Shown piece after piece: positions 9,910-22,305 of a stretch of 40,211 bases of DNA. Source of the DNA: Clostridia bacterium. GTDB lineage: Bacteria > Bacillota > Clostridia > Christensenellales > Aristaeellaceae. The position numbers and the translations under genes were made by a program. The notes beneath the pieces were generated by a model that made no database searches, was not told where the DNA came from, and saw only the letters and a program-made list of their open reading frames with translations. The stretch is from positions 1 through 40,211 of the forward strand of contig JAFUFB010000011.1 in assembly GCA_017470145.1 (NCBI GenBank), read 5' to 3'. Numbering within the stretch: the first letter of the stretch is position 1; each line of letters opens with the position of its first letter.

Positions 9910-10863
9910 ATGTCTACAATCTCCTCCCGCACCTCCCCTCGCCGGAGCCTGCGCTACCGCGCCGCCCTGGCCCTCCGGCGGGATTGGCAGCTGTGGGTGC
10001 TCCTGCTGCCGGCGCTGGCCTTCTTCCTTATCTTCTGCTATTTCCCCATGTATGGCGTGCAGATCGCCTTCCGGGATTACAAAGCCGCCCTGGGCATCAC
10101 CGGCAGCAAATGGGTGGGGCTGAAGTTCTTCGAAAAGTTCTTCAATTCCTATTACTGCGGCCGGATGTTTCTGAACACCTTCCTGCTGAACCTCTATGGG
10201 CTCATCTTCGGCTTTCCCATTCCCATCCTGCTGGCCATCATGCTCAACCAGCTGAACCGGAAGCGGTTCAAGGGCTTCGCCCAGACGGCCATCTACGTTC
10301 CCCATTTCATCTCCACCGTGGTGCTGGCTGGCATGATCTACCTCTTCTTCTCCCCCACCAACGGCATCATCAATCACCTGATCACCGCCGCCGGCGGAAA
10401 ATCCATTTACTTCATTATGGAGCCCGGCTGGTTCCGGCCCCTCTTCATCGGATCCGAAATCTGGCAGAACGCCGGTTGGAACACGATTCTGTACATCGCC
10501 ACCCTGACGGGCATCGATCCTCAGCTCTATGAGGCTGCCACCATCGACGGAGCCACCCGATGGGATAAGATCAAGCATATCGACATTCCCCATCTGATCC
10601 CCATCGCCGTCATGATGCTGATTCTGAACTGCGGCAGCCTCCTGTCCTCCAACACGGATAAGGCCCTTCTGCTCCAGACCTCCGGCAACATGGCCACCTC
10701 CGATATTCTCGGGGTCTATGTTTACAGCGTGGGTATCGCCGCCTCCAAGGCCCAGTATTCCTACGCCTCCGCCATCGGCCTGTGCCTGAACGTCATCAAT
10801 TTCGCCATCATCATGCTGGTCAATTTCATCTCCCGCCGTCTCAGCGAGATCAGCCTGTTCTGA
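9910..10863 (+). CDS. Carbohydrate ABC importer permease, LplB type (importer 2)
   Basis: This 317-residue membrane protein is a close paralogue of the protein at 3198-4154. The first helix is 'LWVLLLPALAFFLIFCYFPMYGVQIAF', there is a 'GFAQTAIYVPHFISTVVLAGMIYL' block, and an EAA loop 'DPQLYEAATIDGATRW'. It forms the transmembrane channel with the LplC protein encoded 14 bases downstream. The start at 9910 follows AAAGGA. It is the first gene of a plus-strand operon that is divergent from the regulator operon. Both paralogues have the same C-terminal 'S-x-R' and 'S/T-L-F' ending. Confidence 0.93.
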   Translation: MSTISSRTSPRRSLRYRAALALRRDWQLWVLLLPALAFFLIFCYFPMYGVQIAFRDYKAALGITGSKWVGLKFFEKFFNSYYCGRMFLNTFLLNLYGLIFGFPIPILLAIMLNQLNRKRFKGFAQTAIYVPHFISTVVLAGMIYLFFSPTNGIINHLITAAGGKSIYFIMEPGWFRPLFIGSEIWQNAGWNTILYIATLTGIDPQLYEAATIDGATRWDKIKHIDIPHLIPIAVMMLILNCGSLLSSNTDKALLLQTSGNMATSDILGVYVYSVGIAASKAQYSYASAIGLCLNVINFAIIMLVNFISRRLSEISLF

Positions 10864-10877
10864 AAGGAGGGCCCGCC

Positions 10878-11813
10878 ATGTCCGTGCTTGCCGCGAAGCA
10901 TAAATCCACGCCCATCCGGGAGACCCGGGCGGATCGCGTCTTCAATGTCATCAATCTCATCTTCTGGGTGCTGGTGCTGTTCATCACCCTGTATCCCCTG
11001 TGGCTGATCCTCATCGCCTCCGTTTCCGATCCGGACGCGGTGCTGCAGGCCAAGGTGCTGCTCTGGCCCGTGGATTTTTCCCTCATGGGATATGAAGCGG
11101 TTTTCCAGTACAAGGAGCTCTGGGGCAGCTATCTGAATTCCGTTTTCTACACCGTGGCCGGCTCCGCCCTCAGCGTCATGGTCACCCTGGCCGCGGCCTA
11201 CGCCCTGAGCCGGAAATTCGCCGGCAAGCGGATCGTGAACCTGGCCATCACCTTCACCATGTTCTTTAGCGGCGGACTGATCCCCATCTTCCTGAACATC
11301 CGGGACCTGGGGCTGTATGATACCCGCACGGTGATGATCGTCATGAATCTGGTGTCCGTCTGGAACCTGATGGTAGCCCGGACCTATATCCAAACCACCA
11401 TCCCCAACGACCTGTACGAGGCCGCGGTCATGGACGGGGCAGGTCATTTCACCTATTTCTTCCGCTGCATTCTGCCCCTTTCCGGCACCATCGTCGCCGT
11501 GCTCTCCGTGTATTACGGCGTCGCCCGCTGGAACGATTACTTCACCGGCCTGGTCATGCTCCGCTCCCGGAAGCTCTATCCCCTGCAGCTGGTGCTGCGG
11601 GAAATTCTGGCTTCCCTTACCTCCACCGGCAATTCGGACACCTTCTTCGCCGCCTACGCCGATAACCTGGGCGGCTTGCAGGAGGCCCTCCGGAAGGCCG
11701 AGGTGGCCAAGTATTGTTGTATCGTCGTTTCCACCGTCCCCGCGGTGCTCCTGTATGTGTTCATGCAGAAATACTTCGTCAAAGGGGTCATGATTGGGTC
11801 ACTAAAGGGTTAG
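10878..11813 (+). CDS. Carbohydrate ABC importer permease, LplC type (importer 2)
   Basis: This 311-residue protein is a paralogue of the one at 2248-3180, with the block 'FITLYPLWLILIASVSDP', an EAA loop 'NDLYEAAVMDGAGHF', and the C-terminus 'YFVKGVMIGSLKG'. The ATG at 10878 is preceded by AAAGGAGG; the longer frame would overlap the upstream gene. Its TAG stop codon lies inside the 5' arm of a large hairpin element that separates it from the second binding-protein gene. Confidence 0.93.
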   Translation: MSVLAAKHKSTPIRETRADRVFNVINLIFWVLVLFITLYPLWLILIASVSDPDAVLQAKVLLWPVDFSLMGYEAVFQYKELWGSYLNSVFYTVAGSALSVMVTLAAAYALSRKFAGKRIVNLAITFTMFFSGGLIPIFLNIRDLGLYDTRTVMIVMNLVSVWNLMVARTYIQTTIPNDLYEAAVMDGAGHFTYFFRCILPLSGTIVAVLSVYYGVARWNDYFTGLVMLRSRKLYPLQLVLREILASLTSTGNSDTFFAAYADNLGGLQEALRKAEVAKYCCIVVSTVPAVLLYVFMQKYFVKGVMIGSLKG

Positions 11814-11964
11814 AATTCGACGACCGCCAGTGGCGGAAATTTCGTCGAATTCTAACAGAGTCCGCACAGAGCGGTCTCCACAGTGTGGAGCCGCAACAAT
11901 GCGGACGACCGGTACTATTTTCGCTGATTGCTATCCTTCGGTTCTCCGCGGTCTGACAGGCCGC
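11810..11964 (+). other. Stop-codon hairpin element, copy 1
   Basis: The outer stem TTAGAATTCGACGA (11810-11823) pairs perfectly with 11842-11855. Inside it sit CCGCC-AGT-GGCGG and an AAATT bulge on the 3' side. A second structure follows: GTCCGCA/TGCGGAC (11860-11866, 11900-11906), GCGG/CCGC, then CTCCAC-AGT-GTGGAG. GACCGGTAC comes next, and a third hairpin GCGGTC-TGACA-GGCCGC lies at 11948-11964. The stop codon of lplC (11811-11813) is in the first arm. The ribosome site of the next gene lies just beyond the element. Related copies are at 19196-19295 and 15129-15364. Whether it acts as RNA or as a mobile DNA palindrome is unknown. Confidence 0.8.
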
Positions 11965-11993
11965 TGAACATAATAAAAAAAGGAGGTCACCCC

Positions 11994-13505
11994 ATGAAAA
12001 CCAGAAGAATCGTTTCCCTGTTCCTCGCCCTGTGCCTGATGCTGGGCCTCTCCAGCGCCTTCGCGGAGGAAAAAATCAACCTCACCGCCTTCCAGTACGC
12101 TCTGGAAAACCAGAACACCGACTTTAATAACCTCTGGTTCTTTGATGAGCTGGAAGAAGCCACTGGCATCCATGTGGATTTCGACATGGTGAAGGACGCG
12201 GACTGGGCCACCAACGTGAACCTGATGTTCGCCGTGCCGGACCAGATGCCCGACATGATCCTGCGGAATCCCGTGGACGTGGAAGAGTATGGCGTGAGCC
12301 AGGGCCTGCTGCTGCCCCTGGATGAATATCTGACCGAGGACATCATGCCCAACTACATCAGCCGCCTGGACATCAACCACGCGGGGGATTCCATCCCCGC
12401 CAGCGATGGCAAGACCTATTACATCGGCTATCTGATGGCCCAGAACGTAAACCACACCGGCACCTGGTATGTGAACCAGAAGGAGCTGGACAAGTTGGGG
12501 CTCAGCGTGCCCACCACCATCGACGAAGTGACCGAAATGCTGCGGGCCATGAAGGCCGACGGGCTGGAGTATCCCTTCTCCGCCAGCTATACCCAGTTCG
12601 GCCCGGAGACCATCTGGAACCAGTTCGCCTCCTTCGGCGTGCCGGAGAACACCTATTACTACTATATCGACGAGAACGAGCAGGTTCAGTTCACCGGCGC
12701 CCAGGACGGCTATCGGGCTTGCCTGGAGTGGCTGCATCAGCTGTATGAAGAAGGCCTGATGGATCCCGAATCCCTGACCCAGGACTCCAACCTCTGGGCC
12801 AACAAGGTCAACGACGGCCAGGTGGGCTTCTTCTGCTACCTGCGGCTGATCAACACCGCCATCTCCGCCGAGAACGTAGAAAACTTCAAGGCCATTCTGC
12901 CCCCCGTGGCGGATGGATACAAGGCCGCTGTTTCCCAGATTCTGGAAATCCCCACCGCCGGCGCTTATCTGACCAAGAACTGCAAGGACCCCGTAGCCGC
13001 CCTGAAGTGGATCGACGCTCAGCTGGAAACCGAAACCATGATGGTCGCCCTGAACGGCAAGGTGGGCGAGCAGATCGTCCTGAACGACGAAGGCAAGTAT
13101 GAAGTCATCGACATTCCGGAAAACAACGGCCTGTACGACTTCGTGCCCGTCACCATGGGTCAGTTCTTCGCCCCCGGCGACTATTACACCTCCATCTATC
13201 AGATGGCGCCCCATCGCGTGGAGCGCTATGAAGACTCCAAGGCCTATGAAGCCGCGGGCGTTCTGGAATACAAGAGCTTCCAGTACCTGCGGGATCTGTC
13301 CAAGATGTCCAATGAGGACGCCACCGAAGCCGCGGATATCTACACCGAGCTGCAAAAGCTGATGGAAGAAAACTTCGCAAACTTCGTCCGCAACGGCGTG
13401 ACCGATGATTCCTGGGCCACCTTCCAGGCGCAGGCCAAGGCCGTGGGCGCGGATCGTTACATCGAGCTGTATCAGAACGCCTATGACGCCTATCTGGCAA
13501 AGTGA
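11994..13505 (+). CDS. Solute-binding protein of importer 2 (second binding protein)
   Basis: This 503-residue protein has a signal peptide ('RRIVSLFLALCLMLGLSSAFA' region, cleavage expected before Glu-Glu at about 25) and no convincing lipobox near the end of the hydrophobic core. The rest is a large LplA/YtcQ-type binding protein, similar to those at 644-2179 and 8096-9637 ('MPDMILRNPVDVEEYGVSQGLLLPLDEY'). AGGAGG precedes the ATG at 11994. It is the last gene of the plus-strand operon. Since 8096-9637 encodes another binding protein next to the same permease pair, importer 2 may use two receptors with different ligands or roles. Confidence 0.9.
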   Translation: MKTRRIVSLFLALCLMLGLSSAFAEEKINLTAFQYALENQNTDFNNLWFFDELEEATGIHVDFDMVKDADWATNVNLMFAVPDQMPDMILRNPVDVEEYGVSQGLLLPLDEYLTEDIMPNYISRLDINHAGDSIPASDGKTYYIGYLMAQNVNHTGTWYVNQKELDKLGLSVPTTIDEVTEMLRAMKADGLEYPFSASYTQFGPETIWNQFASFGVPENTYYYYIDENEQVQFTGAQDGYRACLEWLHQLYEEGLMDPESLTQDSNLWANKVNDGQVGFFCYLRLINTAISAENVENFKAILPPVADGYKAAVSQILEIPTAGAYLTKNCKDPVAALKWIDAQLETETMMVALNGKVGEQIVLNDEGKYEVIDIPENNGLYDFVPVTMGQFFAPGDYYTSIYQMAPHRVERYEDSKAYEAAGVLEYKSFQYLRDLSKMSNEDATEAADIYTELQKLMEENFANFVRNGVTDDSWATFQAQAKAVGADRYIELYQNAYDAYLAK

Positions 13506-13522
13506 GTCATAATCCAAATGCA

Positions 13523-13549
13523 GGGCCTGCCGTCGGGCAGGCCCTTTTT
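13523..13549 (+). terminator. Intrinsic terminator of the importer 2 operon
   Basis: GGGCCTGCC (13523-13531) pairs with GGCAGGCCC (13536-13544) and is followed by five T. It lies 17 bases after the stop codon. Confidence 0.9.
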
Positions 13550-13588
13550 GTTGATAAATTTGTCTACTTGTAAATCTGTCTGCTTGGA

Positions 13589-13607
13589 GCGAAGGGATGT
13601 TTCACTC
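13589..13607 (+). repeat. 19-base repeat shared with 23255-23273
   Basis: GCGAAGGGATGTTTCACTC occurs here on plus and again on minus within the structured region before the DUF554 gene. Here it stands without the long downstream structure, so it may be a remnant of a dispersed element. Confidence 0.6.
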
Positions 13608-13636
13608 CCGCACGCTTTTTGCTGCTGAATATTTGC

Positions 13637-13825
13637 TTACTTAAACAGCGTACACCCAGCCTGGCGGAAGGCCTCCGCCATTTCCCGCAGCTGATCCTCA
13701 GTCACCCGAAACCTCTCCGCCAGGCAGGTCAGGCAAAAGCATTCCACCGCTGCCCGGTTGATCAGCTTCCGGGTCAGCCCCGTCTCCATCCCGGTCAGCT
13801 CCCGGCCGCATTTCGCGCACCTCAC
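13637..13825 (-). CDS. Small zinc-ribbon-like protein of unknown function
   Basis: This 62-residue protein has Cys3-x2-Cys6 near the N-terminus and Cys31-x2-Cys34, with an extra Cys29, spaced as in a treble or ribbon zinc site. The middle is 'GLTRKLINRAA'. The GTG start overlaps the TGA of the GH27 gene (GTGA), which suggests translational coupling. I think similar small two-CxxC proteins occur in other Clostridia, from memory only. Its function is unknown; metal binding is inferred from the cysteine pattern. Neighbouring intergenic sequence on its 3' side carries the 19-base repeat. Confidence 0.7.
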   Translation of the reverse strand: MRCAKCGRELTGMETGLTRKLINRAAVECFCLTCLAERFRVTEDQLREMAEAFRQAGCTLFK

Positions 13826-14958
13826 GCCTTCTCCAGCGTGCCCAGATACACCGCGCAGTCATGGGCCGGCACCTTCACCCGATAATACTCCCGATAGAAC
13901 CCCGCATCCTCGCCGGTGAAAGCGTCCTGTAGCCGCAGGCCCAGTCCGGAGGAAGCCGTCAGCCCGCCGTCGGCAAACAGCATGAACAGCTCCCGCTCCT
14001 CCTCCGCGAAGTTGAAGAAACCCAGGGCATACCGGCCATCCGCCAGGAATTTCAGGCATACGATGCGATCCAGATCCTGCTCATAGCGGTGATGGAAGAA
14101 GATGGGCGGCCGGGCCTCCTCATCCTGATCGATGGCGATCAGCCGGGGATTGGTCACCAGGCTGTGGATGAAGGGCGTCATTTTCCGCACATCGCAGCCC
14201 AGCATCAAGGGAGAGGAGAACATGCACCACAGGGCGAACTGGGACCGATAATCCGCGTCGCCGCAGCCGCTGGTGCCCACCAGGCCCTTGCCATACATGC
14301 CCACCGTCAGCATGTCTAAGTCGTTAAAGCACCCCGGGGCGGACGTGCCCAGCTTTTCCATCTGGCTGATGGCGATGTTCCGATAGCTCTGGGCGTTGTC
14401 GAAAATATCCCCGGTGGAGCGGTACATATGAGCACCGGTGGAGCGAATCCAGCTCCACACATCCTCCGAGCCCCAGTTGCAGGCGGAGAAGAGAATTTCC
14501 CGCCCCGTAGCCCGCAGCGCCATGCCCATCCGGCGATACAGGGTAGGTCCGTCCACGGACAGGGGATGATAGCAGTTGTCGTATTTCAGATAGTCCACCC
14601 CAAATTCCGCGAAGGTCTGGGCGTCCAGGAATTCATGGTCGAAGGAGGCGGGATAATCCCCGCAGGTCCGCACGCCGCAACAGGAATACATGCCAAATTT
14701 CAACCCTTTGCTGTGCACATAGTCCCCCACGGCCTTCATGCCGTTGGGGAATTTTTCATGATGGGCCACCAGGCGCTGGGTCACCGGATCCCGCAGATAT
14801 TCGGACCAGCAGTCGTCGATCACCAGATACTCATATCCAGCCTGGGGCAGGCCCTGGTCCACTATGGCGTCGGCGGATTCCCGAATCAAAGCCTCGTTGA
14901 TCTCGCTGCCAAAGGTGTTCCAGGTGTTAAAGCCCATGGGGGGTGTTTTTGCTAACAT
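13822..14958 (-). CDS. GH27 alpha-galactosidase (or alpha-N-acetylgalactosaminidase)
   Basis: This 378-residue cytoplasmic enzyme has the GH27 opening 'PPMGFNTWNTF', 'VIDDCW' at 47-51, the nucleophile Asp127 in 'YLKYDNCY', the probable acid/base Asp184 in 'STGDIFD', and 'CFNDLDML' at about 210-217. It should remove terminal alpha-galactose from imported oligosaccharides. The ATG at 14958 is chosen because AAGGAGAG precedes it; the start at 15045 has no ribosome site. It has its own promoter and lies behind a terminator, so it is probably not simply co-transcribed with importer 3. The next gene (zinc ribbon) overlaps its stop codon. Confidence 0.93.
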   Translation of the reverse strand: MLAKTPPMGFNTWNTFGSEINEALIRESADAIVDQGLPQAGYEYLVIDDCWSEYLRDPVTQRLVAHHEKFPNGMKAVGDYVHSKGLKFGMYSCCGVRTCGDYPASFDHEFLDAQTFAEFGVDYLKYDNCYHPLSVDGPTLYRRMGMALRATGREILFSACNWGSEDVWSWIRSTGAHMYRSTGDIFDNAQSYRNIAISQMEKLGTSAPGCFNDLDMLTVGMYGKGLVGTSGCGDADYRSQFALWCMFSSPLMLGCDVRKMTPFIHSLVTNPRLIAIDQDEEARPPIFFHHRYEQDLDRIVCLKFLADGRYALGFFNFAEEERELFMLFADGGLTASSGLGLRLQDAFTGEDAGFYREYYRVKVPAHDCAVYLGTLEKA

Positions 14959-15012
14959 GGTTGTTCTCTCCTTGATGTTTGATCGCCCGCTGACGCGGAG
15001 CTTGCTGGGTTG

Positions 15013-15041
15013 ATTGTACACGCTGGGCGGGGGAGATGCAA
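15013..15041 (-). promoter_or_regulatory. Promoter of the GH27 gene
   Basis: TTGCAT (15041-15036), a 17-base spacer and TACAAT (15018-15013) lie 55 bases before the start codon and just after a terminator. Confidence 0.7.
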
Positions 15042-15051
15042 GCATATGAGT

Positions 15052-15083
15052 AAAAAATGCCCTCCGAGGTTGGTTCGGAGGGC
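15052..15083 (-). terminator. Intrinsic terminator after importer 3 and its hairpin element
   Basis: On minus, GCCCTCCGA pairs with TCGGAGGGC around a 7-base loop, followed by A and six T. It separates importer 3 from the GH27 gene. Confidence 0.9.
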
Positions 15084-15128
15084 GGGAGGAGTAAGCTATG
15101 CGTTTGGAAAACTTATCCCCCGGGTTTT

Positions 15129-15364
15129 GCGGCTTCGCCGCTAGTTAGATTTTTTCTGCGCTCATGTTACGGGGTACCGGTCGCCCGCATTGTCGCGGCT
15201 GCCCTGCGTCCGCCGTTACCCGCGCTGAAGCGCGGACGGCTTGCGCATGGGAGCTGTTACCCAAATCAAAGATTTGGACAGCTCCTCAACTGGGCAGACC
15301 GCTCTGTGCGGGCTCAGATAAAATTTTCCGCAATTTCCCCCACTGGGGGGCGGAAAATTTTATC
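15129..15364 (-). other. Stop-codon hairpin element, copy 3 (expanded)
   Basis: On minus, GATAAAATTTTCCGC (15364-15350, containing the TAA stop of the permease gene) pairs perfectly with 15331-15317. Inside are CCCCC-AGT-GGGGG and the AAATT bulge. Then come GCCCGCA/TGCGGGC (15313-15307 with 15189-15183), GCGG/CCGC and CTGCCC/GGGCAG. These enclose two extra arms: GGAGCTGT/ACAGCTCC around CCAAATC-TTT-GATTTGG, and GCCGT/ACGGC around CCGCGCT-TC-AGCGCGG. Each extra arm has a GTA bulge on the 3' side. GACCGGTAC (15182-15174) and a GCGGC/GCCGC hairpin follow, as in copy 1. This fills most of the roughly 400-base gap between importer 3 and GH27. Confidence 0.8.
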
Positions 15365-16232
15365 CCTTTACCGCTCCCGAAGTCAATCCACCCATAAAGT
15401 AGCGGCTGAAGCAGATGAACACGATCAGAATCGGGATAATGGCGATGGTGGCACCCGCGAACATGATGTTCCAGGCCGCCGCGCCGTCGCCGGCGTTCTT
15501 CAGCATGTTGACGCCGACGGTCAAGGGCCGCAGGCTGTCATTGGTCATGGTGAAGACCCGGGGCATGATGTACTCGTTCCATCCCTGGCGGAAGCTCAGA
15601 ATAGCGATGGTGGCCATGACGGGCTTCAGCATAGGGATAATCACCTTGTAATAGGTCTGGAAGAAGGAGCAGCCGTCGATGCGGGCCGCTTCGTCCAGTT
15701 CCCGGGGCACGGAGTTCACATACCCGCGGCAGAGGAAGATGTAGGTTGCCTGGCCGCCACCGGCGGAGAACAGGATGACCGGCCACAGGCTGGTGTTGAT
15801 CTTCAGGTTGGTAGCCAGCTCATACAGGGGCCGCAGGGACACGGAACCTACATTGATGAACATAAAGGCGGTGAAGATGCCATAGATGATTTCCTTGCCG
15901 GGGAAGGTCTTCCGGGAGAAGACATAGCCCGCCATGGAGGACACGAACAGGGAAATCAGCATCACGCCCACGGACAGGAACAGGCTGTTCTTGGTATAGA
16001 CCGCGAAGTTGGCCTGATTCCAGGCGTCCACGTAGTTCTGGGTAACCCACCTGGCGGGAAAGATGTTGGATCCGCCCACCAGCAGCTCCTGATTCTCCTT
16101 AAAGGAGCCCAGGATGATATATAGCACCGGGAAAATGACGATGACGCTGATGCACACCAGCAGCACCCACAGCAGGACCCGGATGGCTTTTTGCGCCGGG
16201 GAATAAACGATTTGCGCTTTGTTCTTTGCCAT
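15360..16232 (-). CDS. Carbohydrate ABC importer permease, MalG type (importer 3)
   Basis: This 290-residue protein has about six transmembrane helices. It contains the EAA loop 'RELDEAARIDGCSFFQTYYKVIIPML' at about residues 180-205 and the typical MalG ending 'FICFSRYFMGGLTSGAVKG'. It forms the channel with the MalF-type protein encoded 16 bases upstream. The ATG follows AGGAGGGG. The family imports di- and oligosaccharides. As with the other importers here there is no ATPase gene nearby. Its stop codon lies in the first arm of the expanded hairpin element. Confidence 0.93.
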   Translation of the reverse strand: MAKNKAQIVYSPAQKAIRVLLWVLLVCISVIVIFPVLYIILGSFKENQELLVGGSNIFPARWVTQNYVDAWNQANFAVYTKNSLFLSVGVMLISLFVSSMAGYVFSRKTFPGKEIIYGIFTAFMFINVGSVSLRPLYELATNLKINTSLWPVILFSAGGGQATYIFLCRGYVNSVPRELDEAARIDGCSFFQTYYKVIIPMLKPVMATIAILSFRQGWNEYIMPRVFTMTNDSLRPLTVGVNMLKNAGDGAAAWNIMFAGATIAIIPILIVFICFSRYFMGGLTSGAVKG

Positions 16233-16248
16233 AATTCATTCCCCTCCT

Positions 16249-17220
16249 TTACACCACATCGTCCAGCTTCTTCGCCACGATGTTGTACACGATGGTGACC
16301 GCGCCGACGATCACCGCCGCCATCAGGCTCAGCAGCGCGCCATAACCGATCTGGCGGGTGGCGTTGGAGCCAGTGCCGAAGATCAGGTTGTAGATATACA
16401 GGAACATGACGTTGGTCCGGGTACCGGGGCCGCCGTTGGTCAGCACCATGATGGCTTCATAATCCTTGAAGGCGCCGGTAATGGCCAGCATCAGCACCAC
16501 CTTCAGCACCGGGGCCAGCATGGGCAGGGTCACCCGGAAGAAGGTCTGCACCGCGTTGGCGCCGTCGATACGGCTGGCTTCGTATACATCCTCCGAGATG
16601 GAGGTCATGCCCGTAACAAAGTACAGCATATAGTTACCAAAGCCGGCCCAGACCGACATGATGATGACCGAGGCCATGACCACGCTGGTGTCCGTCAACC
16701 AGCCGATAGGCTGGGCGATGAGACCCAGCTTCTGAAAAATGCCGTTGAGAATACCATTGCCGGTGGCAAAGATGAACATGAAGATCATACCGGAAATGGA
16801 GGAGGAAATCACCGTAGGCATGAAGAACACGCCCCGGAAGAAGGAGGAACCCCGCAGCTTCTGATTCAGCAGCACCGCCATGATCAGCGCCAGCGGAATG
16901 ATGAAGACCAGCTTCCACAGCGCGTATTCAAAGGTGGTGCCCACGCTGGACCAGAACTTCGCGTCCGCGAACATGTTGGTAATATTCCGCATGCCCGTGA
17001 ACCGCGTATGGGCGGGAATTCCGTCATAATTGTACAGGACGTACCGGAAAATCCAGATGAAAGGATAAATGGAACACACCGCCAGGAAAATCAGCGACGG
17101 CGCCAGCATTACCCAGGCTGCCACTCCGCCGCTTTCCTTCAGGCGCATCTTCTTATCCGCGGGCCGAGGCGTACGGGTGGTAGGCGCCAGCTGCGGATTC
17201 ACATAAGGCTTGGTGGACAC
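16249..17220 (-). CDS. Carbohydrate ABC importer permease, MalF/UgpA type (importer 3)
   Basis: This protein is 323 residues from the GTG at 17220, which has GAGGGAGG upstream; the ATG at 17253 has no ribosome site and would begin inside or close to the preceding hairpin. Six or so membrane helices start at 'AAWVMLAPSLIFLAVCSIYPF', and the EAA loop is 'EDVYEASRIDGANAVQTFF'. It is the partner of the MalG-type permease in one operon with the upstream binding protein. Confidence 0.92.
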   Translation of the reverse strand: MSTKPYVNPQLAPTTRTPRPADKKMRLKESGGVAAWVMLAPSLIFLAVCSIYPFIWIFRYVLYNYDGIPAHTRFTGMRNITNMFADAKFWSSVGTTFEYALWKLVFIIPLALIMAVLLNQKLRGSSFFRGVFFMPTVISSSISGMIFMFIFATGNGILNGIFQKLGLIAQPIGWLTDTSVVMASVIIMSVWAGFGNYMLYFVTGMTSISEDVYEASRIDGANAVQTFFRVTLPMLAPVLKVVLMLAITGAFKDYEAIMVLTNGGPGTRTNVMFLYIYNLIFGTGSNATRQIGYGALLSLMAAVIVGAVTIVYNIVAKKLDDVV

Positions 17221-17262
17221 GGAAGCACTCCCTCCCTCGTTCATCAATTTCATTCAAAATGA

Positions 17263-17286
17263 TCCGGGCGGCAATTACCGCCCGGA
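17263..17286 (-). repeat. Intercistronic hairpin between the importer 3 binding-protein and permease genes
   Basis: TCCGGGCGG and CCGCCCGGA form a 9-bp stem with a 6-base loop and no T-run. It is probably a message-stabilising or partial-termination structure that keeps binding-protein expression above that of the permeases. Confidence 0.7.
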
Positions 17287-17342
17287 CACGAGTTTTTTAC
17301 CAATTTGAGCGGATCAGATTTCCTTCTGAAACCCGACGCGAA

Positions 17343-18686
17343 TTACTTATCCTGCCAAACCACCGTGCCAGCGGAGGGATGCAGCGGATCGTAATCTTCC
17401 ACAACCAGTCTCTGGATGAAGCCCAGGGAGATGTCATCGTCATAAGCGGCGTTGTAACGGGTGTTCAGGTCTTCGATGGCCGCGTCGATGTCCACATAAC
17501 CCATGATGGCGTTCCACAGGGTGGTGCGATAGTCGTCGCCCATCAGGTTGATGGTGGGCACAGCGGGATACACGGATTCATAGTCCAGCAGGGAGAAATC
17601 GCCCATGCGGCCCATCTTGGACTTGTCAACCTTCTCATCGATGTAGGAGGTGATGGGCAGATCGTAGCCGCCTTCCATGTAGCCCACCAGGAACTCTTCG
17701 CTCTGGAAGTACTTGATTACTTCCCAGGCCGCGTCCTTATTCTTGCTGGAGTTCAGCATCAGATAGCCCTTGTTGGGGTTCACCTGCAGCGCGCCCTTGA
17801 TTTCGCCATCCAGGGAGGGCACAGGGGATACGCCCCACTCGAACTTCTCGATGGGGAACTGATTGGTGAACACGCCCGCTTCCTGAGAGGCGTTGCCCCA
17901 CAGGGCGAAGGTGCCTTCCGCAAACATGGCGCGCATGTTGTCCACGCCCTGCTGATCCGGATAGGCCACAGCCACCAGCTCACGGCCCGCTTCCAGGAAG
18001 GGCTTGTAGCCTGAGAAGTCGAACTTGCCGTTGGCGTAGTCATAATAGAACACGCCGGAAACCTGGGCCATCATCTCCAGCTGCCGCTCGAAGGGGGAGG
18101 AGGAGGTGAAGCCGATGCCGTAGGTCACAGGATCGTTGGCCTTGCCATCTTCCGTGATCTTCTTGGCCATTTCGATGTACTCAGGCAGGGACGCGGGAAT
18201 GCCTTCGAAGCCGGAAGCAGCCAGCAGGTCCTTGTTGTACTCGATGCGGACGCCGGAGCGCTGGCCGGAGGGCACCCAGTAGATAGCATCGCCGATGGCG
18301 TTCAGGCCTTCGAACTTCAGGTTCAGCGCATCGGTGACCTTCTGGAACTCTTCATCCGCCTCGATGTAGGGGGTCAGATTCACCAGCGCGTCGTAGTCAA
18401 CCATGTTCTTCAGGGTCACGGACTGGCCGATGATGTCCGGGGCCGTGCCGCCGTCGATGGCCAGCAGGATGGAGTTCTCGAAGTCGTCCGTCATGATGAC
18501 CATGTTGATCTCGATATCATCATGGGCGGCGTTGAACTTCTCGATCATTTCATTGAGATAAACCTCGTCATGGCGGTCATTGGACCAATAGGTGACGACC
18601 GTCTTGTCGGCCAGCGCGGGGATGGCGGACAGCACCATAACGACCACCATCATCAGGGCTACCAACAGGGATACCTTTCTCTTCAT
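17343..18686 (-). CDS. Extracellular solute-binding protein, family 1 (importer 3)
   Basis: This 447-residue protein has a long hydrophobic signal peptide ending 'AIPALA' before Asp-Lys, then a classic family 1 sugar-binding fold: 'VTYWSNDRHDEVYLNEMIEKFNAAHDDIEINM' and 'DGGTAPDIIGQ'. There is no lipobox Cys, so it may be freely secreted, or held in the wall by a mechanism not visible here. AAGGAGG precedes the ATG at 18686; the ATG at 18716 lacks a ribosome site. It is first in the importer 3 operon. A neighbouring alpha-mannosidase (divergent) and alpha-galactosidase (downstream) suggest galacto- or manno-oligosaccharides as ligands, but that is inference. Confidence 0.93.
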   Translation of the reverse strand: MKRKVSLLVALMMVVVMVLSAIPALADKTVVTYWSNDRHDEVYLNEMIEKFNAAHDDIEINMVIMTDDFENSILLAIDGGTAPDIIGQSVTLKNMVDYDALVNLTPYIEADEEFQKVTDALNLKFEGLNAIGDAIYWVPSGQRSGVRIEYNKDLLAASGFEGIPASLPEYIEMAKKITEDGKANDPVTYGIGFTSSSPFERQLEMMAQVSGVFYYDYANGKFDFSGYKPFLEAGRELVAVAYPDQQGVDNMRAMFAEGTFALWGNASQEAGVFTNQFPIEKFEWGVSPVPSLDGEIKGALQVNPNKGYLMLNSSKNKDAAWEVIKYFQSEEFLVGYMEGGYDLPITSYIDEKVDKSKMGRMGDFSLLDYESVYPAVPTINLMGDDYRTTLWNAIMGYVDIDAAIEDLNTRYNAAYDDDISLGFIQRLVVEDYDPLHPSAGTVVWQDK

Positions 18687-18897
18687 AGGGGAAACCTCCT
18701 TATTCTTTTTTCCCAAAGGTTATTGGGGGTGAAATTATCTAACAAAGCGCCTTTTTGCAATAGTTTTTGATAAAAAATTCACACATTTTTGTTACAAATT
18801 TATGAAATCCAGTTTAGATTTTGCTCAGGAATTGATCAAAACGGGATGAAATCATATTCTTTCCGCTATGAATTTTGTTTTGAGCCTCAATTCGATG

Positions 18898-18927
18898 TTG
18901 CGAATCCCCCTCCCCTCATGATACAAT
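18898..18927 (+). promoter_or_regulatory. Promoter of the NifU-like/GH38 unit
   Basis: TTGCGA (18898-18903), 18 bases and TACAAT (18922-18927) lie 43 bases before the start. The 284-base stretch from 18687 also holds the minus-strand start region of importer 3, for which I see only AT-rich sequence and no convincing spaced hexamers. Confidence 0.6.
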
Positions 18928-18970
18928 ATCCCCACGAAAATCTAATCAAACAGGGAGGGCATGGCATCAA

Positions 18971-19207
18971 ATGAAGGAATATATCGAGCAAACCCTGGCT
19001 CCCCGGGTACAGGGGGATGGCGGCTGGGTTGAGTTTGTCTCCCTAGAGGGGGATCAGCTGACGCTGACCTTCCGGGGGGAATGCTCCAAATGCTTTATTC
19101 TCGACCGCTGCATAGACTGGATCGCAAAGAAAATCCAGGAAGACCTGGGGCAGAAGGTGGAGATCAAAGCGGTAAGGAAAAAGCCTTTTTTCTGGGACAA
19201 CAACTGA
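18971..19207 (+). CDS. Stand-alone NifU C-terminal-domain-like protein
   Basis: This 78-residue protein matches the NifU C-terminal iron-sulfur scaffold domain: 'LAPRVQGDGGWVEFVSLEGDQLTLTFRGECSKC', with Cys38, Cys41 and Cys47. The usual motif is C-x2-C; the third Cys is extra. It could carry or transfer an Fe-S cluster in the cytoplasm, or be a degenerate relative. AGGGAGG lies 11 bases upstream. The last three codons and the TGA are part of the first arm of a hairpin element, so its C-terminus ('FFWDNN') may have been reshaped by the element. It precedes the mannosidase gene by 119 bases; a functional link is not evident. Confidence 0.8.
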   Translation: MKEYIEQTLAPRVQGDGGWVEFVSLEGDQLTLTFRGECSKCFILDRCIDWIAKKIQEDLGQKVEIKAVRKKPFFWDNN

Positions 19208-19295
19208 TGACCGCCAGTGGCGGAAATTTCATCAGTTGTTGTCTCAACCGAAAAGGAGGGAGCTCCCCAGTGGGGAGTCCCGACTATTGAGGTTG
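19196..19295 (+). other. Stop-codon hairpin element, copy 2
   Basis: GACAACAACTGATGA (19196-19210, including the TGA stop) pairs perfectly with 19229-19243 around CCGCC-AGT-GGCGG and the AAATT bulge. The second structure has GGGA/TCCC, then CTCCCC-AGT-GGGGAG (19263-19277), closed by CTCAA/TTGAG or CAACC/GGTTG. The 22-base core from 19209 to 19230 is identical to copy 1, while the outer arms are unrelated to it. Confidence 0.8.
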
Positions 19296-19326
19296 CGGAT
19301 ACAACAATTGACGAAAGGAAATACCT

Positions 19327-22305
19327 ATGGCACATGTAAAAGTCGTTCGCCGCTCCATGCGGCCAGAAGAATGGACCGACCTCCGCTTCACCTGGTTGCA
19401 GCGGGGCATCTATGAACAAAAGGAAGAAATCATCGGATGGCGGATTCGGGACGCCCGCCAGATCGCGGAAAACGAATATGAATTCCTGGACGGGGAGGAG
19501 CGGGACCTCCATCGGGGCGAGCTCTACTTCACCCCGGACGGCACCGCCTTTCTCCACGCCCACGCCACCATCCCGGACAAATTCGACGGCCGGAATGTCT
19601 ATCTCTCCCTGAAGACCTCCGCAGAGATGATTGTCCAGGTTAACGGCAAGTTCGTCGGCGGCATCGACCCCAACCGGGAGCGCATCCTGCTGAATCCCTA
19701 CATCGACGGGAAGGAGCTGGATATCCAGATCGAGGCCTACAACCGCTCCAAGCCCGACGATGAGCGCAACCCCGCCTCCCTGAACATCCGGGGCTGCCGA
19801 CAGGTCTTCGAAGGCGCTTATCTGGCCACCATCCGGGAGAACGTCCAGTCCCTGGTGTATGACTACATCCTCCTGATGGACATCGCCCACAGCGAGTATT
19901 TCAACGAGGATTATCGCAAATTCCTTTTCGTGGAGCTGAGCCACGCCCTGGATCGGGTGGATTTCGACACCTGGGAAGGGGTGGACGAGGCTGCGGAATA
20001 CGTACAGAAGGTCATCTATGAAAACACCGACTTCCACGGCAGCGGCGACGTGGCCCTGGTGGGCCACTCCCATCTGGACATCGCCTATTACTGGCGGCGG
20101 ATCCACGCGGTGCAAAAGAACGCCCGTACCATTCTGATCCAGCTGCGGCTGATGGACCAGTATCCCGAATTCCGCTATACCCACACCCAGGCCTACACCT
20201 ATGAAACCCTGGAGAAATATTATCCCGAGCTCTTTGCCGAGCTGCAGGAGAAAGTCAAGGCCGGCCAGTTCGAGCCTGTGGGCTCCATGTACGTGGAGCC
20301 GGACTGCAACATTCCTGCCGCCGAGAGCCTGATCCGTCAATTCCTTTACGGGCAGCGCTTCTTCCGCCGAGCCTTCGGCAAAACCCTGGATAACGCCTGG
20401 CTGCCGGATGTGTTCGGCAACAGCTGGATCATGCCCCAGATTTTGAAAAAGAGCGGCATGGATTATTTCGTGTCCAACAAGATGTCCACCTGGAACGATA
20501 CCAACCGTTTTCCCCATAATAACTTCATCTGGAAGGGGATCGACGGCAGCGAGGTATACGCCTCCGTGCCCCCGACTCATTTCATCAGTTGGAACATGCC
20601 CAGCCAGATTCAAGAAAACTGGGAGGCCTATCAGGATAAGGAAACCGGCGGTCAGACCCTGTCCATGTACGGATACGGCGATGGCGGCAGCGGCGTGACG
20701 GAGGAGATGCTGGAAATGGTCCGCCGCTTCCCGAAGGTCTCCGTCATGCCGAAAACGGAAATCACCGGCGGGGCAGATTTCCTGCATAAGAACCTGAAGG
20801 ACAATGACAAGCTGGCGGTCTGGGACGGAGAGCTGTACCTGGAGATGCACCGGGGCACCTTTACCACCAAATCCAATCTGAAAAAAGCCAACCGCGCCCT
20901 GGAATTCAAGCTGCGGGAGGCGGAAATGGCCTGCGCCCTGGGAGCCCTGGCCGGGGAAGCCTATCCCGCCGAGGAGCTGCGGGAATGTTGGAAAAAGCTG
21001 CTGCTGAACCAGTTCCACGATATCCTGCCCGGCTCCCACATTCATCCCGTGTACGAGGACGCCATGGCGGATTACGCGGAGATCGACGCAAAGCTGAGCG
21101 CTCTCCTGTCTGCCAAGAAAGCCGACGGCTGGTTTAATTCCCTGCCCTTCCCCCGGGAGGAGGTAACCTTCCTGCCGGATGAAAAGGGCAATATCACGCG
21201 GGATGGAGTCAAGGGCTTCTGGGCCATTCCCCACCTGCCCGGCCTTACCGCGGGCCCCATCTCTCCTCTGGAAGGAAAGGCCGGCTGGCTGCGGGCGGAG
21301 CAAAATGAGCAGGGCCAGTGGCAGGCGGAGACCCCCTTCTATACCCTGACCCTAAACCCGGATGGCAGCTTCGCCTCCCTCTTTGATCGGCAGCTGAACC
21401 GGGAATGGGTGCGGCCCGGCTGCGGCTTCAACAAGCTGCACCTCTGGGCGGATCATCCCGGCATGTACGACGCCTGGGACATCCTGCCCAATTACAAGGA
21501 TGTGGCTCGGGATCTGCCCATCGCTCAGGGCCTACGCCTGACCTACCAGGACGATGTTTCCTCGGAATTCACCGTGGATTTCGCTACGGAAAAGAGCGCC
21601 TGGACCATGATCCTCCGCCTCTTCGCTTATAGCCGGCAGATCGAGGTAGAGCACCTGTGCGATTGGCAGGAGAAGCACACCCTGGCCAAGGTCAACTTTG
21701 GCGCGGATGTGCTGACCCGGGACCTGCTCTGCGACACCAGCGCCGGCTTCATTCGCCGCAGCCTCACCAAGAACACCACCTGGGAGGAAGCCCGCTTCGA
21801 GGTTTGCCACCACAAGTGGTTCGACATGAGCGAGACGGACGCGGGCCTGGCCGTCATCAACAGCGGCAAGTATGGCGTCGGCCTGGAGGGGAAGGAAGTC
21901 AGCCTGAGCCTACTGCGCTCCACCATCCGTCCCGATATTACCAGCGATATGGGCCGCCACGATCTGCGCTATGTGATCCTACCCCATGCCGGAGACGCCG
22001 TAGCCGCCGGCGTGAATCGCCTGGCTTTCGCCTACAACGTGCCCCTGACCCAGGCCGCGCCCCAAGTACCGGAGGATTGGAAAAAGGCCATCTGCGACAG
22101 CGGACTGTGGCTGCAGTCCCTGAAGCTCTCCGAGGAGGGAGGTTCCCTGGTACTCCGTCTCAGCGAGCAGGACGGCCGCCGGGCCAGCGTTGCCTTCCCC
22201 GCCCCCGTCCAGCTGCTGAACATGTTGGAGGATCCGGAGGGCGAGACCCAAACCCTGTCCGTCAAGCCCTTTGAGATCGTCACGGTCGGCATTCCTCTGA
22301 AGTAA
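19327..22305 (+). CDS. GH38 alpha-mannosidase
   Basis: This 992-residue enzyme is full length for bacterial GH38. The zinc-binding motif 'GHSHLDIAYYW' gives His247/His249 and Asp251. The probable nucleophile is Asp361 in 'WLPDVFGNSW', and another conserved His is in 'NQFHDILPGSHIHPVYEDA'. The N-terminal 230 residues look like a beta-sandwich. There is no signal peptide, so it should act in the cytoplasm on imported alpha-mannosides, for example from N-glycans or yeast mannan. AAAGGA precedes the ATG at 19327. Codon use is more GC-rich than in the neighbouring importer 1 genes. A terminator follows. Confidence 0.95.
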   Translation: MAHVKVVRRSMRPEEWTDLRFTWLQRGIYEQKEEIIGWRIRDARQIAENEYEFLDGEERDLHRGELYFTPDGTAFLHAHATIPDKFDGRNVYLSLKTSAEMIVQVNGKFVGGIDPNRERILLNPYIDGKELDIQIEAYNRSKPDDERNPASLNIRGCRQVFEGAYLATIRENVQSLVYDYILLMDIAHSEYFNEDYRKFLFVELSHALDRVDFDTWEGVDEAAEYVQKVIYENTDFHGSGDVALVGHSHLDIAYYWRRIHAVQKNARTILIQLRLMDQYPEFRYTHTQAYTYETLEKYYPELFAELQEKVKAGQFEPVGSMYVEPDCNIPAAESLIRQFLYGQRFFRRAFGKTLDNAWLPDVFGNSWIMPQILKKSGMDYFVSNKMSTWNDTNRFPHNNFIWKGIDGSEVYASVPPTHFISWNMPSQIQENWEAYQDKETGGQTLSMYGYGDGGSGVTEEMLEMVRRFPKVSVMPKTEITGGADFLHKNLKDNDKLAVWDGELYLEMHRGTFTTKSNLKKANRALEFKLREAEMACALGALAGEAYPAEELRECWKKLLLNQFHDILPGSHIHPVYEDAMADYAEIDAKLSALLSAKKADGWFNSLPFPREEVTFLPDEKGNITRDGVKGFWAIPHLPGLTAGPISPLEGKAGWLRAEQNEQGQWQAETPFYTLTLNPDGSFASLFDRQLNREWVRPGCGFNKLHLWADHPGMYDAWDILPNYKDVARDLPIAQGLRLTYQDDVSSEFTVDFATEKSAWTMILRLFAYSRQIEVEHLCDWQEKHTLAKVNFGADVLTRDLLCDTSAGFIRRSLTKNTTWEEARFEVCHHKWFDMSETDAGLAVINSGKYGVGLEGKEVSLSLLRSTIRPDITSDMGRHDLRYVILPHAGDAVAAGVNRLAFAYNVPLTQAAPQVPEDWKKAICDSGLWLQSLKLSEEGGSLVLRLSEQDGRRASVAFPAPVQLLNMLEDPEGETQTLSVKPFEIVTVGIPLK

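Follow-up and report, generated by a model that had tools for sequence, protein, structure and literature searches.

The paired features that overlap three stop codons in a 40,211-nucleotide stretch of Clostridia bacterium DNA (hereafter the window) are, in the reading that we favour, copies of one non-autonomous, REP/BIME-like palindromic DNA repeat spreading in the genus. The core pattern occurs exactly 11 times in this genome (G000) and 0 times in a reversed control, and a covariance model built from ten copies yielded 30 matches in the genome; together these counts rule out a chance origin. Across the genus the model matched at least 577 times, in 45 of 45 genomes, a lower bound because the best 89 candidates per genome were scored. 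Family-wide, matches were found in 86 of 308 genomes and 10 of 50 genera, many of those outside the genus being weak; a second genus, g48, is also rich in them. The search of related genomes proposed in the preliminary description thus extends far beyond three copies and yields, with covariation, a single family.

Outside the family the pattern tested was an exact 20-mer (the 18-nt core plus two bases of the 3' arm), which occurred in the named genome collection in 44 stretches, each with a Clostridia or Clostridiales title; a gut sample of goat, roe deer, buffalo or yak is named in 25 of these 44 titles. The 20-mer was also present in one viral contig. Carriage by phages or plasmids was considered and rejected, element 2 (131 bases) having no match in either collection. 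In one locus of the genus (L060, 1596-2564) a gene with a Major_capside domain precedes a gene-end copy, so that a prophage-like region carries the repeat there. A known RNA family, which the preliminary description had named as a possible counter-explanation, was likewise rejected: Rfam 15 gave 0 matches in the window at gathering score, and at E up to 1 two matches in window positions 11700-19400, neither on an element. A sub-threshold isrJ match at 13480-13546 (31.1 bits; gathering score 37) is probably due to chance. In the open-licence full-text literature, the only literature searched, we found no description of the repeat family.

Copies in the window and anatomy of the unit

All three elements of the preliminary description are present, and each overlaps a stop codon; the stop lies inside the 5' arm, not at its first base as had been described (Table 1). 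The outer stem, reported as 14, 15 and 15 bp, is perfectly paired over 15 bp in all three elements, element 1 starting one base earlier than had been given. The arms are GTTAGAATTCGACGA, GACAACAACTGATGA and GATAAAATTTTCCGC in elements 1, 2 and 3, respectively; the chance of 15 perfect pairs at one given place is ∼1e-9 under equal base use. RNA folding z-scores of the three elements are -6.56, -5.98 and -7.17. The inner part is not fixed: it is CCGCC/GGCGG in two copies and CCCCC/GGGGG in the third, and both the AGT loop and the AAATT bulge vary family-wide. Element 2 is the top-scoring covariance-model match in the genome (117.9 bits) and also one of the ten sequences from which the model was built.

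Table 1. Positions of the three elements, their hairpins and the adjoining gene ends in the window.
Feature	Position	Strand	Remarks
Element 1, hairpin 1	11809..11856	+	15-nt 5' arm, CCGCC-AGT-GGCGG-AAATT core, 15-nt 3' arm; model match 11809-11911
Element 1, hairpin 2	11857..11912	+	type A, ends GACCGG
BPD_transp_1 permease gene	10782..11813	+	ends GSLKG-stop inside 5' arm of element 1; stop TAG 11811-11813, arm positions 3-5
Element 2, hairpin 1	19196..19243	+	NifU-domain gene stop TGA 19205-19207 inside 5' arm, arm positions 10-12
Element 2, hairpin 2	19244..19298	+	type B, TCAACCG...GAGGTTGCGG
Imperfect direct repeat of 5' arm	19299..19314	+	adjoins element 2; ATACAACAATTGACGA
Open frame with NifU domain	18887..19207	+	start codon not chosen; ends WDNN-stop in arm
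Element 3, hairpin 1	15317..15364	-	permease stop TAA 15362-15360 inside 5' arm, arm positions 3-5
Element 3, hairpin 2	15177..15316	-	type A, carries nested insertion
Nested repeat, 84 nt	15205..15288	-	at AGT loop of element 3 hairpin 2
Second gene-end copy	15106..15118	-	downstream of element 3; GGATAAGTTTTCC

The unit measures ∼104 nt, consists of two hairpins and begins directly after GG. It occurs singly or in head-to-tail arrays, and it is found at gene ends, where the 5' arm comprises the last codons and the stop, in composites at tRNA tails, and elsewhere. Running the model on 108 of 157 loci gave 129 matches and 117 distinct elements, from which 10 were dropped for want of a recognised 3' end and 14 as duplicate, cut or out of register. 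The remaining 93 fall into 23 elements of type A (arms such as GNTAA... or GTGAG..., end GACCGG), one row being a lone hairpin 1, and 70 of type B (end TGCGG). A subclass of 36 of the 93 has RCGAA...TGAGR arms with tandem G·A mismatches, and in hairpin 2 of type B the CANNC/GNNTG pairs covary at both N positions. The base preceding the arm is G in 70/70 type-B and 21/23 type-A elements, and the second base before it is G in 68/70 and 23/23, respectively. By inspection, the arms mostly start with G or A after this GG and lack a fixed tetranucleotide head. Both inverted arms lie within hairpin 1, and the 3' end of the unit (GACCGG or TGCGG) is not their complement.

Inspection of the sequence after hairpin 1 showed AGAG/TGAG or a TCA-type sequence in place of a T-run. 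A hammerhead-like motif was considered and dismissed, since inspection showed CTGATGA in only a subset of the arms, where it is paired. Partial and extended forms were also observed: locus L142 carries hairpin-2-like units in tandem without hairpin 1, L060 has a unit made of hairpin 1 only, and the type-A copies at L023, L031, L039 and L047 share a further 3' stretch after GACCGG (approximately CCCGCTGGG...ACGCAGAAAAA...GCGGCGAAGCCGC). A nested repeat of ∼84 nt enters AGT loops; the one in hairpin 2 of element 3 also interrupts hairpin 1 of the orthologue of element 1 (L149, near 5600).

Pairing, module turnover and a guaA end

Near-perfect pairing without sequence conservation, as claimed for the three copies, holds across the genus. 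In an alignment of 62 distinct rows (A2), both partners have changed in 14 of the 15 pairs of the outer stem. Compared with the commonest pair, 306 cells of helix 1 depart from it at both bases and 2 at a single base, these cells counting sequences rather than events in an alignment that was fitted to the structure; such concerted two-arm variation with few single-side states is as for a hairpin maintained by template switching. The covariation score of the whole structure was 0.561, compared with 0.160 for shuffled and at most 0.116 for slid alignments.

The composition of the pairs bears on the level at which the stems are kept. Across the 93 elements, 1255 of 1287 outer-stem pairs are Watson-Crick, 7 are G·T/T·G and 7 are A·C/C·A, a count that sets aside mismatch positions 1, 3 and 4 of the G·A subclass and comes from a covariance search favouring paired copies and missing strongly decayed ones. 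Over all distinct rows of alignments A2 and A3, G·U and A·C are equally frequent in the outer stem (11 vs 11 of 1691) and number 1 and 3 of 575 in the inner stem, and hairpin 2 has a slight excess of G·U (16 vs 9 of 1073). As a control, 11 tRNAs from the same loci contained 12 G·U in 237 pairs, a small set called by ARAGORN, which accepts G·U and not A·C. We favour the reading that the outer stem is maintained at the DNA level. Hairpin 2, with its slight excess of G·U, speaks against a purely DNA-based reading, and a role in RNA is possible. Badly matched arms have been kept in two copies (L222 and L045), and a third (L026) contains one mismatch.

Orthologous copies in G000 and G043 differ by whole modules, with flanks that are ∼92-95% alike (∼5-8% divergence). 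At one locus (L035/L212) hairpin 1, including the gene's stop codon, differs and hairpin 2 is kept; at another (L043/L211) hairpin 1 is kept and hairpin 2 differs. A further pair, L031/L222, shows module turnover as well, and the L222 copy resembles a junction of two units, with the 5' arm from one and the 3' arm from the other. In L048/L226 (99.4% alike), one base differs, in the 3' arm.

The repeat overlaps gene ends and seems to have captured some. GuaA chains end in IEWE in three PDB alignments for L073, and the guaA elements there and, judged by the translated end, in L065 start within TGG|GAA-stop, the arm beginning with the codon of the conserved C-terminal Glu. Elements at L058, L064, L077 and L110 (the genome of the last is listed with 8% contamination) are likewise headed by the guaA sequence GAGTGGGAATGA, and their upstream frames are, by eye, not guaA. 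Because the guaA end is conserved, we take the direction to be from guaA to the element, and the guaA end thus seems to have been captured.

Gene ends and relatives without the element

The genes ending in the window elements are two BPD_transp_1 permeases and one NifU-domain protein. The claim that the preceding genes are unrelated is borne out to this extent; most type-A gene-end copies, however, follow permeases ending in KG, and most type-A host genes end in VKG or LKG, as permeases do. Of 85 elements, 34 have within the 5' arm the stop of a frame of at least 90 codons (19/23 type A, 15/62 type B). In the others such a stop lies 14-59 nt upstream (8 type B) or is not in reach (4 type A, 39 type B). 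The count covers those of the 93 elements with at least 330 nt upstream, omits window element 2, whose frame is shorter than 90 codons, and takes in a lone hairpin-1 unit that follows another element. Since the arms themselves contain stops, an interrupted gene would end there anyway, and the 34 of 85 alone are no proof of gene-end targeting; the comparison of orthologues bears on that question.

These with/without comparisons were made without a tree, so that they do not tell gain from loss. At the NifU locus, the gene end is shared through GACAACAACTGAT by two relatives lacking the element (G010 and G050), which match 14 and 13 of the 15 arm bases, respectively, and have no 3' arm; G009, G006 and G059 are empty with other gene ends, and G043 shows a degenerate stretch, with a different element close by. 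Among 19 fetched orthologues of an FGGY kinase gene, which we take to be glycerol-kinase-like, the element is present in G007, G024 and G017 and as a remnant in G001. Each of these arms encodes the gene's own WAxx-stop end, close to the end in element-less relatives, in which ∼9-10 of 12 coding bases match the 5' arm and the 3' arm is absent. Among the 19 orthologues fetched for the AA_kinase/ACT gene of L036, the element is present only in G060, as a tandem of type B where G000 has type A. Further genomes match these genes outside the fetched sets, and the match of G008 in one search, and those of G001 and G008 in another, run into the element region. Element 3 is absent from L119 (taken as G043, which has the same matches), where GGATAA and a T-rich stretch stand alone.

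Other sites look different. An intergenic composite repeat exists in three copies with and three without the element, and the empty form has neither arm. The arms at tRNA-tail loci are unlike the target, and 15 of 80 distinct arms recur behind at least two different upstream flanks, orthologues or tandem units accounting for some of the cases. The proposal that the outer stem derives from the host gene therefore fits a subset of loci and is not a general rule. Likewise, the empty-site comparison called for in the preliminary description revealed a 5'-arm-like end without a 3' arm at those two genes and neither arm at the intergenic composite.

The tRNA tails have an organisation of their own. 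About 100 nt 3' of the tRNA genes (farther in L108), past a terminator-like hairpin, a more or less decayed antisense copy of the tRNA 3' half precedes a sense copy, in which the repeat lies near the variable loop at L051, L061, L063, L071, L075, L098, L108, L132 and L151; ARAGORN called no tRNA in L151.

A direct repeat resembling a target-site duplication lies 3' of the element at NifU and FGGY kinase. A first test that included tandem units gave a strong result for type A (with 22 elements, no permutation out of 200 reached the observed value; for type B, 4 of 200 did), and the type-A result owed its strength to the inclusion of those units. In the 19 non-tandem gene-end elements a right-hand direct repeat is neither general nor significant overall (mean 3.84 vs 3.61, 125 of 601 random draws as high). 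Several type-A right flanks, perhaps that of NifU too, could be leftovers of tandem units. The copy ATACAACAATTGACGA next to element 2 may be either the displaced old gene end or the remnant of a tandem unit.

Candidate mechanisms and known systems

With moderate confidence we attribute these features to a DNA-level process that combines arm correction by template switching with the exchange of modules between copies. The repeat would insert after GG; fold-back template switching (quasipalindrome correction) would then rewrite one arm from the other, restoring pairing, and recombination between copies would swap hairpin modules. At gene ends the 5' arm would be held to the codons of the gene, so that the 3' arm would become an inverted copy of the gene end, and such an arm could then travel with the element, as proposed for the guaA end. 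Extracts of PMC8794818 state that template switching creates, and possibly maintains, perfect stems in RNA genes, and call the evidence for maintenance circumstantial. No arm-correction event was caught among the copies examined. Against this proposal, the tandem G·A mismatches conserved in 36 of 93 elements should have been erased by correction, and the mismatched copies that survive (L222, L045, L026) argue against template switching. Nor would G·U be preferred if a protein selected for perfect hairpins in DNA, a reading that would fit the outer stem equally well.

Covariation in a stem is commonly taken as proof of selection on RNA structure, and it is strong here, as are the predicted folds (z about -6 to -7). 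Together with the sense orientation just 3' of stops, often behind permease genes, and the G·U excess of hairpin 2, this would suit an RNA 3'-end element, be it a stabiliser, terminator or processing site, with compensatory mutation preserving its stems under ordinary selection on RNA. We nevertheless consider such an element unlikely, given that outer-stem G·U pairs are rare and no commoner than A·C, unlike in tRNAs of the same loci, that hairpin 1 is not followed by a T-run, that modules are swapped at 5-8% divergence and that Rfam holds no match at gathering score. With few outer-stem G·U pairs and swapped modules, strong covariation may in this family be the product of a DNA process. Alternatively, insertion itself might copy the gene end inversely by fold-back synthesis, every insertion making its own 3' arm. 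The element-less relatives with a 5'-arm-like gene end and no 3' arm point in this direction, as does a second gene-end copy to the right in the cases of NifU, FGGY kinase and element 3, which gives the order T, inverted T, T. As a rule for all insertions this is quite unlikely: the empty intergenic composite has neither arm, tRNA-tail arms are unrelated to their target, identical arms occur with different flanks and the direct repeat is not general. For the gene-end copies, copying at insertion is possible. A specific version, which we regard as rather doubtful, is that an inserting hairpin templates its second arm on the last 9-15 bases of the gene, so that gene end, core, inverted end, hairpin 2 and old end come to follow one another, and later carries captured ends (guaA) elsewhere.

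Perfect arms could also be expected of a REP whose mobilisation depended on a Y1 (RAYT-type) transposase requiring a perfect hairpin of single-stranded DNA, so that only perfect copies spread. Location at gene ends and the supply of stop codons resemble REPs, and long Y1 frames are present in G043 and in six further members of the genus from the fetched set. Y1 transposase matches were found in 7 of 8 genomes searched and were absent from G000, which holds 30 copies (genome 84% complete). None of 16 long Y1 frames examined, out of 17, is flanked by repeat copies; in the 15 stretches containing these 16 frames the model matched 3 times, weakly or strongly, within 2 stretches, and ∼1.6 kb lies between a Y1 frame and the nearest of these matches. 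The spread of perfect donors would also leave unexplained why arms follow the local gene end, and we judge mobilisation of this kind to be improbable. The RAYT-like frames at L237-L251, from several genomes of the genus, are 245-341 aa long. A link to reverse transcriptase was rejected: of 8 genomes, 2 had RVT_1 matches with E no higher than 0.001 and 1 had a match above the cut-off, the one match in G000 lying below it. The Y1 and RVT_1 searches of the 8 genomes thus revealed no mobiliser.

Among the closest known systems are REP/BIME sequences (GTAG/CGTC): in extracts of PMC3733652 they are short, high-copy palindromes near gene 3' ends, clustered or in tandem, whose termini can supply stops, and GTAG REPs are reported to provide TAG stops to flanking frames. 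The overlap with stop codons is therefore not new. RAYT genes, according to extracts of PMC2817692, are flanked by two inverted REP copies. The present repeat differs in having two hairpins in ∼104 nt, hypervariable 15-bp arms and GG before the arm, and in lacking both a fixed GTAG/CGTC head and, in the stretches tested, a RAYT beside it. Unlike MITEs, it has no terminal inverted repeats at both element ends, and unlike in an intrinsic terminator, no T-run immediately follows hairpin 1. A tandem inversion duplication has the order T, inverted T, T, which resembles element 2 with its flanks; here, the junctions consist of the conserved core and hairpin 2. With its hundreds of copies, the family provides natural replicates on which template-switch repair of hairpins can be tested. 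Palindromes in coding sequences of Nematomorpha mitochondria are likewise perfect inverted repeats, but they are mitochondrial, and extracts of PMC6649704 mention no shared core element. Hairpins ascribed to template switching share with the repeat perfect stems and multi-base compensatory change; in extracts of PMC8794818 they are described for RNA genes, whereas here they form a dispersed repeat whose arm overlaps coding sequence.
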